Of a DNA stretch of 20,320 bases, positions 7,101-12,658 are shown in pieces (the first letter of the stretch is position 1; each line of letters opens with the position of its first letter). This DNA is from a virus. The stretch is from positions 1-20,320 of IMG/VR virus record IMGVR_UViG_3300025108_000491; one strand, written 5' to 3'. The notes below the pieces were generated by a model. It did not search any database. It saw nothing but the letters and a program-made list of their open reading frames with translations, and was not told where the DNA came from. The translations under genes and the position numbers were made by a program.

Positions 7101-8761
7101 AGATAATCGGTGACGCTACAAGATCAGCCGATCAACAATTTGCTAAACACATTGCTCCTGGCGAAACACTTGAACCTAAGATGTTTGAGGAAAGATTAAA
7201 ACAGTTCGCAGCCGACAATGTTCGTAATCTTGTACCCAACTATGAATTAGTTCCAGAAGCCATTACTGGTTTAAGAGGACTACCTTTTGGTAACTTTATA
7301 GCTTTCCCAGCAGAAATATTAAGAACTGGTTTTAATATAATGGATGTGTCCATGAAAGAACTAGCCAGTAACAATGCCGCTATAAGAGAACTCGGGGCAA
7401 GAAGAATGATGGGTGCTATAACTTCTTTCGGCTTATTGGGTAATGGACTACAAGAATTTGGTAAAATGATGACGGGTACTAGTTCAGAAGAGATAGATAT
7501 TATAAATAGACTAGCTGCTCCTTATCAAAGAAATGCTCAATTCATACCTATAGGTAAAGATGAAAAAGGTAACCCAGAAGTTATGGATTTTAGTCACACT
7601 AATCCATATGATATGTTATCAAAACCTTTAAACACTATGCTTAGAAGTCTAAGAGAAGGAAGTCGTTTAGATCAAGGTGGTATTGAGAAAACAAGAAACG
7701 CTATGTTCGAAACAATAGGTGAATTTTTTGAGCCATTCTTTGGTGTATCAATGGTCTTCGAATCTTTCTTAGATATCATGCCAAGAGGTAGTGGAGTCGG
7801 AAGAGGTGGAGAAACAGTTTCTGGTGCCAAAGTATATAAACCAGAAGACACTATTGGAAAGCAATTAGAAAAATCTGTCATACATGTAATAGACACTCTT
7901 CTACCGAATGTTGTTGGTGCAAGAATTCCAGTAGGAGCAGATATAGGTTTATCTGATTTTAGTTTTACACCAGTAAAAAGTATAGAAGCAGGACGTTTTG
8001 TAAGAGGTGCTTTTATGGATGCCGATTCTGTTGAACCTACAACAGGTAGACAATATACAACGGGTGGTGAGTTGTTCAGAGCCTTTACTGGTTTGAACAG
8101 TCAGATAATAGATAGAGAAAAAGTGTTAGGTTTTAAATCTCAAGAATTTAAATCTAAAAGATCTGGAGCAGCCACTCTATTTAACGATGTTTTATTTTTA
8201 GAAAACCCATCTCAAGATACATTCGTAGAAGGATATGTCAGAGCAGACAATGCTAGATTAAAAGCATTTAGAGAATTAAAACTTGATGTTGATGGTTTAC
8301 AAAAACTTGGTTTAAAAGATTATGAAATAAGAAGAATAATGAAAGAAAAAGGTCTTGGTAAAGATGAAATAAATTCTGTTATGAATGATATGTATAGATC
8401 TTTTAGACCTTCAAAGGAAAAAATAAAACAAGTAAATAGAAAAGGATTAGATTATCCGTATACTGCAATACAAGACTTAATTGACTTGAGGGATTTTATG
8501 CAAATAACTCCACCAGAGCCTGTGGATCCACCTGAAGAAAAAAAGAAAAATCCTTTAGATTTATCAAATTTAAGTATACAAGAACCCAATGTTAGTAGTA
8601 ATGTAAATCTCAAAACACAACCTTTAAATGTTTCTTCGTTGGATCAAGTGATTGCTCCTTCTGTGAATGTAGCAAGTACGGCTAGAAACAGTCCTAGTTT
8701 CTTAGGAAGCAATCCAACAGACATTGCGAAGAACATGGATATTGCTAGGAGAACAGCGTGA
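4178..8761 (+). CDS. Giant internal virion (DNA-ejection) protein, 1527 residues
   Basis: The largest gene in the window, in the place and size range of the big core ejection proteins of T7-like podoviruses. It starts at an ATG with AGGA about 7 bases upstream. The N-terminus (YIIDGKSYSFADEIGQEKAE) is a small soluble module. Residues about 35-130 hold hydrophobic Gly/Ala helices that could insert in membranes. The long middle is helical and charged. Residues about 1028-1060 contain GLRGLPFGNFIAFPAEILRT, a motif I associate with the large internal proteins of many podoviruses. Residues about 1440-1470 form a Pro/Glu/Lys linker, and the end carries PSFLGSNPTDIAKNMDIARR. I see no convincing lytic transglycosylase motif. 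Wall cleavage may instead come from the next gene, which overlaps it by four bases (GTGA). Confidence 0.8.
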   Translation: MPEYIIDGKSYSFADEIGQEKAEEIIARGQKNASGGSSTYEGFFTEAGEGVASGVANIIEGVTTLPTLAVDLIAGTNATETVENWFEEQKDALGIDPEGAAGKVTEALVQFGIPGIGAASAAGKAGRLARIATGKSKIGIKSVGAKDARQLGQKYGNVVKGRASALTRSQRAGVVAQQVAAAGLADAIVSTDGTQTIGDFFEQGPTSTNDAVGYEGRDKAFQKILNKVKVGVEGGVATAILPPVVGAGLKTVSKVAAIRPFEGLGSSTSVLDIASGFTIPAARKGFEVAGKKITGAKEKVLKQPDDLTTLDKVVGYGASMLTYGGFLDPIVARAKSLVNPEIEGATKQATDRIKNIDKKIKTVLKTKPYRNLPEIEKQKLVDNFMDILEGTNPNNIKELPDELKDLYVAAKRDIDNLSNKILNSAAFKALPEASANTREMTQEKFKKQLQENITKGGYLRRLYRVFNDKDYVIKPEDKKIIFDKIASGEGVNYGHVKGLLQDTAFAIDDAQMAQLMSGTAKLTDRQAKAYVDKYLRINKERGGKATSGAISRIFNVRLDTSLLAKRKVDDEIQRLILGEIRDPREAYVATVSELSNFIASDKMLNTFKQSVDASIASTIARNAENVANNVRGADGEIVQEGQLFFKMDDEILKIVKENPETLRDSLAKAKIDNADDLTSVSQLDSNVIADAVEIWQGRNAGFEILGRTLETAGRRASDPMANPTQSVFGTMFGYAIPRAMYNNMSSKVWADGDAFPTMLRYLYQPMMKLKGYSQYAKTILSPITQVRNVTSAAMFALANGNFGKGASLGTSVNVVLRDIIDKELKLGGKTFDSMKMNDEVLDFLTELQERGVIGSSAQLREIQDNLRKGMGYDRQDKASYAARVAAGGDEVTATRQNPDFKATERSKLGQFFRTPFQKAEDLYKGGDDIWKIYNYTFEMNKFRNARRKIQNAEIKKAKQSSAYKAAEGNNELQLKIIGDATRSADQQFAKHIAPGETLEPKMFEERLKQFAADNVRNLVPNYELVPEAITGLRGLPFGNFIAFPAEILRTGFNIMDVSMKELASNNAAIRELGARRMMGAITSFGLLGNGLQEFGKMMTGTSSEEIDIINRLAAPYQRNAQFIPIGKDEKGNPEVMDFSHTNPYDMLSKPLNTMLRSLREGSRLDQGGIEKTRNAMFETIGEFFEPFFGVSMVFESFLDIMPRGSGVGRGGETVSGAKVYKPEDTIGKQLEKSVIHVIDTLLPNVVGARIPVGADIGLSDFSFTPVKSIEAGRFVRGAFMDADSVEPTTGRQYTTGGELFRAFTGLNSQIIDREKVLGFKSQEFKSKRSGAATLFNDVLFLENPSQDTFVEGYVRADNARLKAFRELKLDVDGLQKLGLKDYEIRRIMKEKGLGKDEINSVMNDMYRSFRPSKEKIKQVNRKGLDYPYTAIQDLIDLRDFMQITPPEPVDPPEEKKKNPLDLSNLSIQEPNVSSNVNLKTQPLNVSSLDQVIAPSVNVASTARNSPSFLGSNPTDIAKNMDIARRTA

Positions 8762-9213
8762 AACTATCAGACAACTTTTCATTAACAGAATTTACTAAAT
8801 CACAGACAGCTGAAAGAAAAGGCATAACTAATAAACCTAACGAAATACATGTTATGGCTATGGAATCTTTATGTCACAATGTACTAGAGAGAGTCAGGTC
8901 AGCATTTGCTAAACCAATCAACATTAATTCGGGTTATAGAAGTGTTGCTTTGTGTGAAGCTATTGGATCAAAATCCACCTCACAACATTGCGATGGAGAA
9001 GCAGCAGACATAGAAATATATGGCGTAAGTAATTACGACTTAGCAAAATATATAGAAAACAATTTAAACTTTGATCAATTAATACTAGAATGTTGGGACG
9101 GTATTGACCCTAACTCTGGATGGGTACATGTTTCTTACGTCAACGATGTTGCTAATAGAAAAGATGTGCTAACATATACGAGAGCAAACGGATATACGAA
9201 AGGTATTATATAA
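8758..9213 (+). CDS. M15-family peptidase, probable endolysin or virion wall hydrolase
   Basis: A 151-residue zinc peptidase of the M15 (D-Ala-D-Ala carboxypeptidase-like) group, which cuts peptidoglycan stem peptides. The signature SxHxxGxAxD is exact: SQHCDGEAAD at residues 75-84, with His77 and Asp84 as expected zinc ligands. Glu111 in DQLILE is a candidate catalytic acid, and His124 in GWVHVSY is the expected third ligand. INSGYRS at 56-62 is also typical. The whole protein is one catalytic domain with no signal peptide or separate wall-binding domain. It starts with GTG inside the end of the giant ejection gene, so it is translationally coupled to it. It may act at lysis, or be packaged to open the wall during infection. 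No holin is recognisable nearby. Confidence 0.9.
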   Translation: MKLSDNFSLTEFTKSQTAERKGITNKPNEIHVMAMESLCHNVLERVRSAFAKPININSGYRSVALCEAIGSKSTSQHCDGEAADIEIYGVSNYDLAKYIENNLNFDQLILECWDGIDPNSGWVHVSYVNDVANRKDVLTYTRANGYTKGII

Positions 9214-9395
9214 TGGAAGATGGTCCTTTTAAGCAGTATTTAGAACAAAGCACCGAAGGTGTTATTAGACAAGAATTAATAACATATAGAATAGAAGATG
9301 GTGTTTTAAAAAGACAAATAGTCACAAGAGATTTTATTGAATCTGGTGACTATCATGATACTTCATACTCACTACCTTTGGTGACTATGCATTAA
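9213..9395 (+). CDS. Small conserved phage protein, 60 residues, unknown function
   Basis: A short acidic protein with no hydrophobic segment long enough for a membrane helix. It reads as a compact beta unit: VIRQELITYRIEDGVLKRQI (about residues 17-36), then a DYHDTSYSLPLV tail. This style (RQE-ITYR-EDG-LKR, then DYHDTS) is familiar to me from small proteins next to the endolysin in marine phages, but I know no assigned function. It is joined to its neighbours at both ends by TAATG, so it is probably translated only as part of the run peptidase, 60-mer, 213-mer, 65-mer. It does not look like a holin, because it is polar throughout. Confidence 0.65.
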   Translation: MEDGPFKQYLEQSTEGVIRQELITYRIEDGVLKRQIVTRDFIESGDYHDTSYSLPLVTMH

Positions 9396-10036
9396 TGTCC
9401 ACTTTAATTTGTAATTTACCTTCCGTAGACGTATGGGTTAGACGAGAATATTTAAGGGATCATCAAGATGGACATGGGGAATTCGTAAAAGGTGTCTGGG
9501 TTACTGCTAAATCTATTCCTGGCAGAAGTTTTTATTTTGAAACTTACCTTCCTGATTATGGTGCTTTGTATGACAAGCTACCTATTTCAGCATTCCTATC
9601 GAGCCCCGATACCCCGACCACAGATATGGATCTTTACAATCTTCAGTTTTGGAATTGTATGGATTATGGCGTGGTGTCTATTTGTAAACAATTTATAGGA
9701 TCAATGTCCTTTGAGATACTAACAAGGGATCACGGTACAATGACGGGTACATATATTTGTACTCTTGATAATTACCATCAAGATCCAGACGTAGCTGATT
9801 ATTCTACCAGCGAAACACCAGCAGAACATAAATCATTTAATCTTTTAGAATTAAAGAACGGACAGTTCTGTTTGTATCCGAACAATAGAATGAGAGTCTA
9901 TGATAATTCTTTGACACCTCAAGAGCCATTGCAACCAGACTTCAAAGTAAGTACAATAGAGTACCAGGTTGAGAATGGTCAAAAATTTAGACTTGGTGAT
10001 ACTGACGAATACTTTTGGAAAACCAAAGATGAATGA
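9395..10036 (+). CDS. Conserved phage protein of unknown function, 213 residues
   Basis: A well-formed acidic protein rich in Tyr, Phe, Asp and Trp. It has no signal peptide, membrane helix or known catalytic motif. Its densest conserved-looking part is the N-terminal third, with VDVWVRREYLRDHQDGHGEF (about residues 11-30), then PGRSFYFETYLPDYGALYDK (about 42-61) and LPISAFLS. The remainder contains aromatic beta segments such as NLQFWNCMDYGV. I recall closely similar openings in marine phage genomes, always listed as hypothetical. The strong aromatic content and strand-like alternation suggest a virion or DNA-associated beta protein. That is a guess. It shares TAATG with the gene before it and ATGA with the gene after it. 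Confidence 0.7.
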   Translation: MSTLICNLPSVDVWVRREYLRDHQDGHGEFVKGVWVTAKSIPGRSFYFETYLPDYGALYDKLPISAFLSSPDTPTTDMDLYNLQFWNCMDYGVVSICKQFIGSMSFEILTRDHGTMTGTYICTLDNYHQDPDVADYSTSETPAEHKSFNLLELKNGQFCLYPNNRMRVYDNSLTPQEPLQPDFKVSTIEYQVENGQKFRLGDTDEYFWKTKDE

Positions 10037-10230
10037 TAGAGTTTGCTTTAGTCTATATGATAGGCACGATAATAATTAATCAAGATCAAACATTTCCCAA
10101 TGTTAATGATTGTCTGTATTTTGCCAGACGATTAAACGAACAACCAGAGATTCCATATCCAGATGCCAAGTTCAGAAAGATTACAGCCTATTGTAAGCCC
10201 GTGCCAAAACGTCTGCAAAATAGAAGATAA
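10033..10230 (+). CDS. Small protein with hydrophobic N-terminus and two cysteines
   Basis: A 65-residue protein starting with a short hydrophobic stretch (MIEFALVYMIGTIIINQ), which could be a signal peptide or buried strand, followed by a polar part with Cys27 (NDCLYFARRL) and Cys53 (ITAYCKPV). The two-cysteine layout suggests a small disulfide-bonded extracytoplasmic protein. A single N-terminal anchor is also possible. The start lies in the stop of the 213-residue gene (ATGA), and its last 68 bases overlap the next gene in another frame. A protein with the same plan is encoded at 14672-14893 on the other strand. Lysis accessory or envelope modification are conceivable, but nothing shows this directly. 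Confidence 0.6.
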   Translation: MIEFALVYMIGTIIINQDQTFPNVNDCLYFARRLNEQPEIPYPDAKFRKITAYCKPVPKRLQNRR

Positions 10231-10357
10231 TATATGTATCGGATGTTTTAGAACTTTAGATGAGATATCTGTGTGGTCTAAGCTTTCAAGCCAGAAAAGA
10301 GCAGAAATTATGGAATCAGTGAAAAAACGAGGCTCTCAGATGCCTCAGAATCGTTGA
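10163..10357 (+). CDS. DUF1289 family protein, putative small Fe-S or zinc protein
   Basis: A 64-residue protein matching the DUF1289 pattern: SPCQNVCKI then ICIGCFRTLDEISVWSKLS (residues about 12-42), then a basic helix. The four cysteines (14, 18, 25, 28, as C-x3-C and C-x2-C) are the expected metal ligands. The Gly-Cys-x-Arg-Thr-x-Asp-Glu run after them is characteristic. The family is common in proteobacteria, especially alphaproteobacteria, and its biochemical role is not established. Here the ATG lies inside the preceding 65-residue gene, giving a 68-base overlap. No better in-frame start is visible before the first cysteine, and the ribosome site is weak, so translation may depend on the upstream gene. 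A short hairpin (GAGGC/GCCTC, 10329-10346) lies over its last codons. Confidence 0.75.
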   Translation: MPSSERLQPIVSPCQNVCKIEDNICIGCFRTLDEISVWSKLSSQKRAEIMESVKKRGSQMPQNR

Positions 10358-10475
10358 AACATAAGGCTTTGGTATGATTGGTACCTAAAATAGTCTTTTC
10401 CTTTGTACATTTAAGATAGATGCCTTAGAATTAATTCATGCTTTTTTGGAACTTATTTCTTTCATTCTAGCCTAG

Positions 10476-10510
10476 TTTTTTATTTTTAAGAACGAATGTA
10501 TAAATAAAAT
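10476..10510 (+). promoter_or_regulatory. Possible AT-rich promoter for the DUF1127 gene
   Basis: Two overlapping -10-like hexamers, TATAAA (10499-10504) and TAAAAT (10505-10510), lie 38-49 bases before the DUF1127 start. The matching -35 region is only a T-run (around 10476-10487), far from TTGACA. In DNA this AT-rich such matches occur by chance. Support comes mainly from position: the only gene-free stretch on this strand, before a gene with its own strong ribosome site. Confidence 0.3.
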
Positions 10511-10515
10511 GCAGA

Positions 10516-10528
10516 GTTAAGCATTAAC
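10516..10528. repeat. Short inverted repeat in the DUF1127 leader
   Basis: GTTAA-gca-TTAAC, a perfect 5-bp inverted repeat with a 3-base spacer, sits just downstream of the possible -10 element and upstream of the ribosome site. Its position would suit an operator or small RNA hairpin. It is short and AT-rich, so chance is a real alternative. Confidence 0.3.
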
Positions 10529-10547
10529 AAACAAAAAAGGAATAGAA

Positions 10548-10748
10548 ATGTTATCGAAGTGGTTTTACAATTTTAAGATAGGAAGAACAGTTTCAGCTTT
10601 ACATAGTTTAGATGACGCTACATTAAAAGATATAGGTATTCATAGATCAAATATCAGATCACATGCATATGAAATTTTTAAAAATGAAAAGCCTGTAGAT
10701 GATCCTATGTCAGAGTTACATGATTTGTATGTAAAATCTACTTACTAA
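10548..10748 (+). CDS. DUF1127 family small regulatory protein
   Basis: A 66-residue, Arg/Lys-containing protein with the DUF1127 (YjiS-like) core: LHSLDDATLKDIGIHRSNIR at residues 18-37, matching the family pattern LxxLDDxxLxDIGxxRxxI. DUF1127 proteins are short, abundant in alphaproteobacteria, and have been linked to RNA binding, RNA turnover and phosphate or carbon regulation. In a phage such a protein could rewire host RNA metabolism or nutrient response. That is inference. The gene is set apart from the late operon by 190 bp, has a clear ribosome site (AAAAAGGA, 6-base spacing), and its stop TAA overlaps the stop of the convergent polymerase gene by 4 bp. A host origin followed by adaptation is likely. 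The C-terminal tail (residues 45-66, acidic) extends beyond the usual core. Confidence 0.85.
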   Translation: MLSKWFYNFKIGRTVSALHSLDDATLKDIGIHRSNIRSHAYEIFKNEKPVDDPMSELHDLYVKSTY

Positions 10749-12658
10749 TCAACCTCGCCCCAATTGTCACATAGAGCAGTATCTACTTCAAAAGGTATCT
10801 TTAAGTCTGGTACACAAGTTGTCATAATTTCTACAATCTTATCAGCTTGTGCTTGACTTTCTATATTAAAACACAGTTCATCATGCACAGTTAAGGTTGG
10901 GCACAGTCCTTCTTTATAACATTCAACCATAGCTCTCTTGGTCTGATCGGCACTTGATCCTTGTATTAATCTATTCAAAGCTTTGTATGTATAGGCTCTT
11001 CTAATTCTACCTTTACTTCCATATTCTTTGATGGCTTGTTCCATAGGTAAAGCTCTGTTAAATCCGAAGGACACAGGTTCGTACATATCAAACCTACACT
11101 TACGACCTAGCCAAGTTCTAATAACTCCATGATCTTTTGCACGAGTCATGGCTTTTTCAGATAAAGATTTTAAAAAAGGAACTTTTTCATTATAAGTTTG
11201 TAAAAGTTTCTCTGCTTCTTCTATTTCTATATCCATAACATTAGCAAGCTTACCTTTACCCATGCCGTACATAATACCAAGGTTAACTGTTTTAGCTTGT
11301 TTTCTAGGTATGTTTGCCATATCTGCAACCATTTGATGAAAGTCAGCATTACCTTCGTGATACATTTTTACAACGTCATCTATTTGTGGGTGTCGATCTA
11401 CACCTGTCAAGGTGGCACAATAATGAACTAACCATCTTGGTTCTTGTGATGCATAATCAAAGGAACCCCATTTGTGGCCCTCCTCCGGGATAAACAAACC
11501 ACGAATTAATTTTTTGATCTCAGGATCTCGTGCAGGTATCTGTTGCAAATTGGGGTTGCTTGAACTAAATCGTCCTGTTACAGTTCCTCCACCATCGGAT
11601 CTTAGGGAGTGAAAATCACAATGTATTCTACCATTATGAGAGTGATCGAGAATAGTATCGACAAATGTCGTATTAGCTTTATTTATTTCTCGAATTTTTA
11701 TAATCTTTTGTGCAATTGGATGAGTGTTGTTCGCAAGAAATTGTTTTGTAAACATGGGAGCCCCGGACTTTTCTGTGCGAGAGTACGGAAGTCCCACGGC
11801 ATCAAAGACCTTTGCTACAGATGTGGCGACCCAAGGTTCAACCGTGACTCCAGTTTCCTTGACTATTTCATCTATAAGTGATTTTTCTATTTTAGTTAAA
11901 TCTTTTTTAGTTTGATGTGCCTTTTCAACATCAACACGAACTCCCTTTGTTTTCATCTCAAACAATACGGGAAGTAAATCTGTCTCTAATTCAAAAATAC
12001 TTGTGCACTCTTGTTGAGTTATTTTCTTTCTTAAATTTTCCCAAAGTTTTAAAGTTATCAAAGCATCTTGCTCGGCATACTTACCTACATATCTAGGAGG
12101 TAGTTGCCACATACCAGATTTAGCATCAACACCAAACTCTTCTGCAGCAGACTTTAATAATTTTTCGTCCTTAAATTCTCCCAAGTAATCTCTAGCAAGT
12201 GAGTTAAGGTTATACCATTTTCTATTTTCATCTAATAAAGGTGCTGCAATCATTGTATCTATGATTTTACCTTTAACTTCTATACCCTCGGCTCGAAGCC
12301 AACCTAAATCGTACAAAGCATTATGAAACACTTTAGTTATTGTTTCGTCTGCACAAAGTTTTGTTAACCAATTGTACACGGCATTCTTTGGCATGTTGCC
12401 AACCTTATGCCCCGTAGGAAAATACCAAGCACTTTCGCCAGCACCAACGGCTATTCCTATTATGTATCCATCTTTCCTAGTCCACCCAGGCCCAAGAGTT
12501 AAAAGGTTTGAATCTTTTGTTTCTAAGTCAATAGATATAGTTTTATGTTGTGATAAATCTGGAAGTGTTTGAGGTGGTTCCCAATCAGAATCTACGTTGC
12601 CCCACGAAACATCTTTAATATCTTGATCTAGTAAGTGATATTGATCATGATTTGTCAT
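10745..12658 (-). CDS. polA: Family A DNA polymerase with 3'-5' exonuclease domain
   Basis: A 637-residue replicative polymerase. The N-terminal proofreading domain has Exo I (IDLET, Asp44 and Glu46), Exo II (FHNALYDLGWL, Asn113 and Asp117) and Exo III (YAEQD, Tyr194 and Asp198), so it appears active. The polymerase domain has motif A (DYASQEPR, Asp401), motif B (RKQAKTVNLGIMYG, Lys456 and Tyr464) and motif C (VHDE, residues 591-594). The 5'-nuclease domain of bacterial Pol I is absent, as usual in phages. The residue equivalent to E. coli Phe762 is Leu460, a variant known from marine viruses. The GGTGGAG ribosome site lies 9 bases before ATG. The start overlaps the DUF6378-like gene by 14 bases. 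This is the last gene of the minus-strand operon, and its TAG overlaps the stop of DUF1127. Confidence 0.97.
   Translation of the reverse strand: MTNHDQYHLLDQDIKDVSWGNVDSDWEPPQTLPDLSQHKTISIDLETKDSNLLTLGPGWTRKDGYIIGIAVGAGESAWYFPTGHKVGNMPKNAVYNWLTKLCADETITKVFHNALYDLGWLRAEGIEVKGKIIDTMIAAPLLDENRKWYNLNSLARDYLGEFKDEKLLKSAAEEFGVDAKSGMWQLPPRYVGKYAEQDALITLKLWENLRKKITQQECTSIFELETDLLPVLFEMKTKGVRVDVEKAHQTKKDLTKIEKSLIDEIVKETGVTVEPWVATSVAKVFDAVGLPYSRTEKSGAPMFTKQFLANNTHPIAQKIIKIREINKANTTFVDTILDHSHNGRIHCDFHSLRSDGGGTVTGRFSSSNPNLQQIPARDPEIKKLIRGLFIPEEGHKWGSFDYASQEPRWLVHYCATLTGVDRHPQIDDVVKMYHEGNADFHQMVADMANIPRKQAKTVNLGIMYGMGKGKLANVMDIEIEEAEKLLQTYNEKVPFLKSLSEKAMTRAKDHGVIRTWLGRKCRFDMYEPVSFGFNRALPMEQAIKEYGSKGRIRRAYTYKALNRLIQGSSADQTKRAMVECYKEGLCPTLTVHDELCFNIESQAQADKIVEIMTTCVPDLKIPFEVDTALCDNWGEVD

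Follow-up and report, generated by a model that had tools for sequence, protein, structure and literature searches.

The window examined here, which is the entire virus record IMGVR_UViG_3300025108_000491 (20,320 bases), encodes a genuine phage member of the DUF1289 family (COG3313/YdhL-type), and we regard this identity and the architecture of the locus as practically certain. Comparison with metagenomic relatives shows that the four-cysteine core of the protein is under selection. It also shows that this core, residues ~12-55, is squeezed between other functional sequence at either end, because the first ~22 codons overlap the gene of a 65-residue protein and the last ~9 residues cover a conserved DNA element. 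Taken as a whole, the best explanation would be a genuine, selected, dual-coding DUF1289 protein acting as a small metal/redox helper, a reading that we hold plausible but tentative.

The DUF1289 protein and its dual-coding start

The genes around DUF1289 lie in the order M15 endolysin, 60-aa ORF, phrog_3704 protein, 65-aa ORF, DUF1289, DUF1127 and convergent polymerase (Table 1). Judged from the polymerase and helicase, the closest named phages are 023Pt_psg01, DSL-LC04 and the pelagiphages HTVC023P and HTVC027P; these reach 46-53% identity, for which reason the host of the window phage is uncertain. The recorded host of DSL-LC04 belongs to the Gammaproteobacteria. The 65-aa ORF is without a match in Pfam, PHROG and NCBIfam, and the phrog_3704 protein is without a match in Pfam. 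The PHROG label of the latter is 'ferredoxin', and its homologues in phage records are called PurM, ferredoxin, transcriptional regulator or virion structural protein; with no Pfam match to the protein, these names look unreliable.

Table 1. Features of the window around the DUF1289 gene
Feature	Position	Strand	Evidence or remark
Peptidase M15 endolysin	8758..9213	+	Pfam E 4.4e-19; PHROG phrog_894, lysis
phrog_3704 protein, upstream cassette member	9395..10036	+	E 8.4e-110; homologue in L051, E 5e-21
65-aa ORF	10033..10230	+	Two Cys; hydrophobic N-terminus (by eye)
DUF1289 (PF06945) ORF, 64 aa	10163..10357	+	Pfam E 1.6e-17; ATG start
68-nt dual-coding overlap, 65-aa ORF/DUF1289	10163..10230	+	Codon-level constraint
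Four Cys codons of DUF1289	C14 10202-10204, C18 10214-10216, C25 10235-10237, C28 10244-10246	+	
Conserved DNA element, terminator-like hairpin on polA strand	10318..10347	-	Inside DUF1289 3' end
DUF1127 (PF06568) ORF, 66 aa	10548..10748	+	E 2.4e-7
Family A DNA polymerase, convergent with cassette	10745..12658	-	Pfam E 2.6e-60

The whole-protein score against the Pfam DUF1289 profile is 63.5 bits (gathering cut-off, 27) and the match covers profile positions 1-46 of 47, which bears out both the family name and the cysteine core of the original prediction. The cysteines follow the pattern C14-x3-C18-x6-C25-x2-C28, and the R-T-x2-E-I-x2-W motif of the family is complete after the last of them (R30, T31, E34, I35 and W38). 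In an alignment of 51 phage and cellular members the R of this motif was invariant and T, E, I and W were kept in at least 90%. All four cysteines were invariant in alignments of 29, 12 and 51 DUF1289 proteins, in part because the search patterns included some of those cysteines. The window protein therefore has the same four cysteines, together with Gly27, Arg30, Thr31, Glu34, Ile35 and Trp38, as DUF1289/COG3313 ('Predicted Fe-S protein') and YdhL. Unlike COG3313/YdhL, it is phage-borne, its N-terminal extension is written over a neighbouring gene and its C-terminal tail lies over a DNA element. The protein had no PHROG, NCBIfam or PADLOC match at E 1 or less, and the PADLOC models of anti-phage defence matched none of four proteins at that threshold.

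Two AlphaFold2 models of the protein had low-to-middling confidence (mean pLDDT 70.5 and 67.7), and the first was used for the fold searches. Foldseek returned four rows from the PDB with a best E of 7.5, and none of these four chains reached Z 2 or more with VIA-align 2; sequence searches of the PDB gave E 0.07 or worse and no related solved structure. In a viral structure library, three of the top four rows were COG3313 proteins (E 3e-3 to 3e-2). The four cysteines would hold one metal site, either Zn or Fe-S, the Fe-S label being itself a prediction, and metal binding by the window protein is probable.

The out-of-frame overlap with the 65-residue gene (ORF 10033-10230) was found as predicted, 68 nt at 10163-10230 with an offset of +1. 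IMG/VR gave 59 loci with a relative of the window protein; in 45 of them (L001-L041 and L043-L046) the DUF1289 gene is of the same kind, and it is overlapped by the 65-aa ORF (61-65 aa) wherever the upstream sequence is long enough. With the 65-aa protein as query, 109 loci were found and 80 kept, and the DUF1289 core overlaps the end of the 65-aa gene in 79 of these; the sequence of the sole miss, L252, stops at the contig end.

Selection was measured on 34 distinct sequences. Past the overlap, dN/dS was 0.139 in the DUF1289 frame versus 1.11 and 1.86 in the two remaining frames, and in the non-overlapped part of the 65-aa ORF it was 0.062, with the wrong frames above 1. Within the overlap, the 65-aa frame gave a dN/dS of 0.42 and its synonymous change was lowered from 0.30 to 0.17. 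The DUF1289 frame alone gave 2.1 (pN 0.10, pS 0.05), a value that counts neither for nor against the gene, since each third position of this frame is a first position of the other.

The constraint can be seen at the level of codons. From the loci of both searches, 60 distinct sequences were gathered by a pattern of the 65-aa protein that did not require the cysteines. The DUF1289 ATG at 10163 was kept in all 60, and codons 14 and 18 were TGC or TGT in every one. Residue 61 of the 65-aa gene is Leu in 40, Val in 15 and Met in 5, and its codon ends in TG in 60 of 60, a constant ending that spells the DUF1289 cysteine. CTG accounts for 0.9% of the leucine codons in the five large plus-strand ORFs of the window. 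When codings of the 65-aa protein were redrawn with the codon usage of these five ORFs, both overlapped cysteines were kept in an open frame in 0.67% of the draws, as against 60 of 60 natural sequences. Together with the dN/dS of 0.139 in its own frame and the 79 of 80 loci, this rules out a chance ORF. Both overlapping genes are under purifying selection in the metagenomic relatives, and conservation of both frames in related phages, which had been proposed as a check, is thus established.

The same data bear on whether the gene could be a neutral passenger, taken from a host and now drifting. Its function is unknown and its C-terminal part is replaced or truncated in L043-L046, as a passenger might be, but the dN/dS in its own frame and the retention of the overlapped cysteine codons against codon bias make drift hardly credible.

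By eye, no Shine-Dalgarno-like run precedes the DUF1289 ATG at the usual distance, so translation of DUF1289 may plausibly be coupled to that of the 65-aa gene. The want of a clear ribosome site, along with a DUF1289 frame that is open for 27 nt upstream of the ATG, would also suit +1 frameshifting in the 65-aa gene, by which DUF1289 would be made as a 65-aa/DUF1289 fusion and not from its own ATG. Against this stand the ATG kept in all 60 distinct sequences and the homologous pair in L051 and L057, where the two are separated genes, and we consider frameshifting very improbable.

Origin of the overlap and the conserved DNA at the 3' end

In a second phage group (L049, L051 and L057) the order is a phrog_3704-like ORF, a 60-aa counterpart of the 65-aa protein, a further ORF (147-246 aa) and then DUF1289; in L049 and L051 other ORFs intervene between the first two. 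Homology of the first two ORFs was tested for L051 alone: its 60-aa protein shares 53% identity with the 65-aa protein (E 1e-24), and its phrog_3704 counterpart was matched at E 5e-21. The 60-aa protein of this group ends right after ...ITAYCKP and DUF1289 starts a little before SPC. In the window, the end of the 65-aa core and the start of the DUF1289 core fall on nearly the same bases, and each non-core tail overruns the core of the other. The middle gene may have been lost in the window lineage, and its gain in the second group is equally possible.

An out-of-frame overlap at the start recurs outside the window group, since in the roseophages CRP-345 and CRP-1 the sole possible DUF1289 start codon lies inside the upstream reductase gene, at 25 and 28 nt, respectively, from the end of that gene. 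In this respect the two phages are like the window. Oceanospirillum phage GJ44 has a 13-nt overlap of DUF1289 with a 'DNA-binding protein' gene, compared with 68 nt in the window. In CRP-207 a small ORF (L144:4512-4712) follows soon after DUF1289 and a glutaredoxin gene, and by eye it resembles the 65-aa protein in its hydrophobic start and two cysteines.

At the other end of the gene, the minus strand carries a stem-loop (10347-10328) followed by a T run to 10318, while the plus strand codes for the tail RGSQMPQ; residues 56-62 of DUF1289 fall within this element. Among the 25 distinct sequences that share the tail, out of 30 of the same length, third-position diversity was 0.042 at the element versus 0.338 in codons 29-55. 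The element is also found where it does not code: in L043, L044 and L046 the DUF1289 gene ends earlier and the same element lies outside it, and in L258, L263, L264, L270, L271 and L278 the stop codon is at the edge of the element. These observations indicate that the tail is conserved mostly as DNA, and since it overlies a conserved DNA element its conservation must not be read as protein function.

Of 64 distinct loci, 36 gave a call of a terminator-like hairpin on the minus strand and 28, by the same rule, did not; among mononucleotide shuffles the rate of such calls was 4.4%. A terminator scan of the window by itself was at chance (a single called terminator versus a shuffle mean of 0.9), so that support for a terminator comes from conservation. 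The likeliest role of the element would be to terminate the convergent polA transcript. A 21-base piece of the element had a single exact occurrence in each of 36 viral stretches. Contig names compared by eye placed 35 of these among the contigs from the DUF1289 or 65-aa searches, and the remaining one, L339, also carries DUF1289.

Beyond the element, a further conserved non-coding block extends to about 10390, before the DUF1127 gene, and contains TTGGTATGATT; this block might be a promoter for DUF1127. Promoters predicted in 8700-10800 were at chance (9 found versus 9.6 expected), Rfam gave no match in 9000-11500, and the RNA fold of 10310-10545 was no better than shuffles (z -0.24). An attachment site was considered because the 3' element is conserved; it was rejected, as no integrase was found in four of four relatives and no tRNA in the window, and the occurrence of the 21-base piece once per viral stretch also counts against it.

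In L043-L046, the C-terminal part of DUF1289 differs and is followed by extra intergenic sequence, with terminator-like stretches in some of these loci; this extra sequence separates the gene from the conserved element in L043, L044 and L046. The differences suggest recombination at the junction.

Gene neighbours in phages

The DUF1127 protein downstream scored 30.8 bits (gathering cut-off, 23.3) over profile positions 13-37 of 37. The window and 44 of 46 loci (L001-L046) have a DUF1127 motif within 900 nt after DUF1289, the distance being about 700 nt in L030 and L031, and the Pfam model was above cut-off in five of five larger relatives. In the two exceptions, L024 and L035, no DUF1127 was recognised downstream, and DUF1289 and its overlap are kept. 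Among 91 other DUF1289 loci from phages, none had the motif within 1.2 kb. The DUF1289/DUF1127 pair is thus stable in the window phage group and absent outside it among the sampled loci. The original prediction had described a pair of alphaproteobacterial-type small proteins. The pairing with DUF1127 stands; DUF1289 itself is not restricted to alphaproteobacteria, since it occurs in E. coli and in more than a third of the genomes sampled from the phylum of Ruegeria.

This pairing is the main argument for a regulator of host takeover. On that reading the zinc of DUF1289 would be structural, and the protein would join DUF1127 in binding RNA, the transcription machinery or a regulator of the host. 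One report (PMC11707872) places some bacterial DUF1127 proteins in phosphate metabolism, in RNA-related processes or with a two-component system, and a short four-cysteine protein would suit protein binding. However, DUF1289 persists in L024 and L035 with no recognised DUF1127, the 91 other loci do without the motif, and the 190 nt that separate the two genes contain conserved non-coding sequence, so that one transcript may not cover both. We therefore judge a takeover role unlikely.

In several phages outside the window group, the neighbours of DUF1289 hint at nucleotide metabolism. In the roseophages CRP-1, CRP-9, CRP-207 and CRP-345 the same DUF1289 core, 40-42% identical to the window protein, begins within 31 nt past the stop codon of a ribonucleotide reductase gene, and the DUF1289 gene is unannotated in all four records (L141-L144: CRP-9, CRP-345, CRP-1 and CRP-207, respectively). 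In L047/L048 the core begins at the last bases of the reductase gene, so that the two overlap. In LR756508, a 484-kb record, DUF1289 follows the reductase and one inserted ORF, and MazG-like and dUTPase-like ORFs, identified by eye and not by profile, come after it. In CRP-207 the glutaredoxin gene follows DUF1289, and in PaBG the gene just upstream of the DUF1289 copy bears the annotation nucleoside triphosphate pyrophosphorylase.

Pfam scores above cut-off support the reductases of CRP-9, CRP-207 and LR756508. That of L047 was below the cut-offs (14-26 bits) and is 31-32% identical to the CRP-1 and CRP-207 reductases. The CRP-9 reductase is of another type, with 22% identity to that of CRP-207 over 392 aa, and two very different reductase types thus occupy the same slot beside DUF1289 proteins that are 52-69% identical between CRP-9 and the other three CRP phages. 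According to the CRP-9 paper, the genes of this region mostly resemble cobavirus genes and are ordered like them, and the word DUF is absent from its main text (PMC8528129). A literature search, with most subscription papers outside its reach, found no discussion of phage DUF1289 together with ribonucleotide reductase.

A reductase lies upstream of DUF1289 in 61 of the 128 viral loci with an upstream ORF, which is not an unbiased rate because some queries were themselves reductase-linked, and the independent reductase-linked cases are few. Whereas the CRP roseophages have DUF1289 directly after a phage reductase, no reductase was detected in the window group: PF02867 had no match in six of six records, three of them ~40 kb and any of them possibly incomplete, and this model detects divergent phage reductases poorly (that of L047 scored 14 bits and that of CRP-207, 39). 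No nucleotide gene is annotated beside DUF1289 in Lu11, HRDY3, Rollin, RcSimone-Hastad and GJ44, where most genes are 'hypothetical'; these five copies and that of PaBG were recognised by tblastn and the cysteine pattern rather than by Pfam. The records of GJ44 and Pseudomonas phage ZRG1 name a DUF1289 protein, and its gene neighbours in these phages differ from those of the window.

Bacterial DUF1289 and the proposed function

Of 150 genomes sampled from the phylum to which Ruegeria belongs, 55 have DUF1289, as does E. coli. In two of the 30 bacterial loci read, L317:850-1761 (-) and L330:1384-2274 (+), it is fused to a NUDIX domain, the DUF1289 domain scoring 67.7 and 65.9 bits, respectively, whereas the window phage protein is DUF1289 alone. 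The L317 fusion, the one scanned against NCBIfam, matched CoA pyrophosphatase. Other bacterial neighbours vary and include RuvX with a CcmH-type TPR protein, DBI_PRT and an aspartyl protease; the scan of neighbours covered 83 of 108 ORFs, short, overlapping and near-duplicate ones being omitted (e.g., all of those in L306). Because the neighbours differ, the bacterial neighbourhood was not used as the main functional argument.

The reductase neighbours in several phages and the two bacterial NUDIX fusions favor a small metal/redox helper that serves nucleotide or cofactor metabolism, which we propose as a possible role while considering it rather doubtful. The adjacency of genes in phages can be inertia, which weakens the link to nucleotides. 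As no ribonucleotide reductase was detected for the window phage, its protein would act on enzymes of the host. In its most specific form, which is less probable, phage DUF1289 would be a metalloprotein that works with ribonucleotide reductase and with enzymes that handle nucleotides, a partnership that has been overlooked. It would have held its place beside the reductase in marine phages even as the latter was replaced by one of a different type, and phages without a reductase, which the window phage seems to be, would use it on the enzyme of the host.

The statement in the original prediction that the role of DUF1289 is unknown even in bacteria was nearly right. The exception is an overexpression screen in which ydhL was protective against H2O2: it was one of 20 genes whose overexpression allowed E. 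coli to grow at 3-fold the H2O2 MIC, and it was also in the HOCl candidate list (PMC8228696). In E. coli, ydhL sits between ydhF and nemR, with sodC one gene past ydhF. Both the screen and this location would accord with general oxidant protection, in which the phage protein, as YdhL may do, would buffer metal or thiols during infection with no specific enzyme partner. However, the result is one of overexpression, among 217 H2O2 candidates, and most deletions raised sensitivity but, katE apart, did so without high significance (PMC8228696). General protection is therefore also a rather unlikely role.

The DUF1289 family itself was already known; what is new is a phage member with an unusually well documented dual-coding start. 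The locus illustrates clearly how one short gene can be dual-coding at either end, between protein and protein at the 5' end and between protein and DNA element at the 3' end. DUF1289 is widespread in bacteria (more than a third of the genomes sampled from one phylum) without a defined role, and phages keep it under strong selection, sometimes beside a reductase and unannotated, which offers a small tractable system for its function. If the proposed partnership with ribonucleotide reductase is true, it would be the first defined role for DUF1289.
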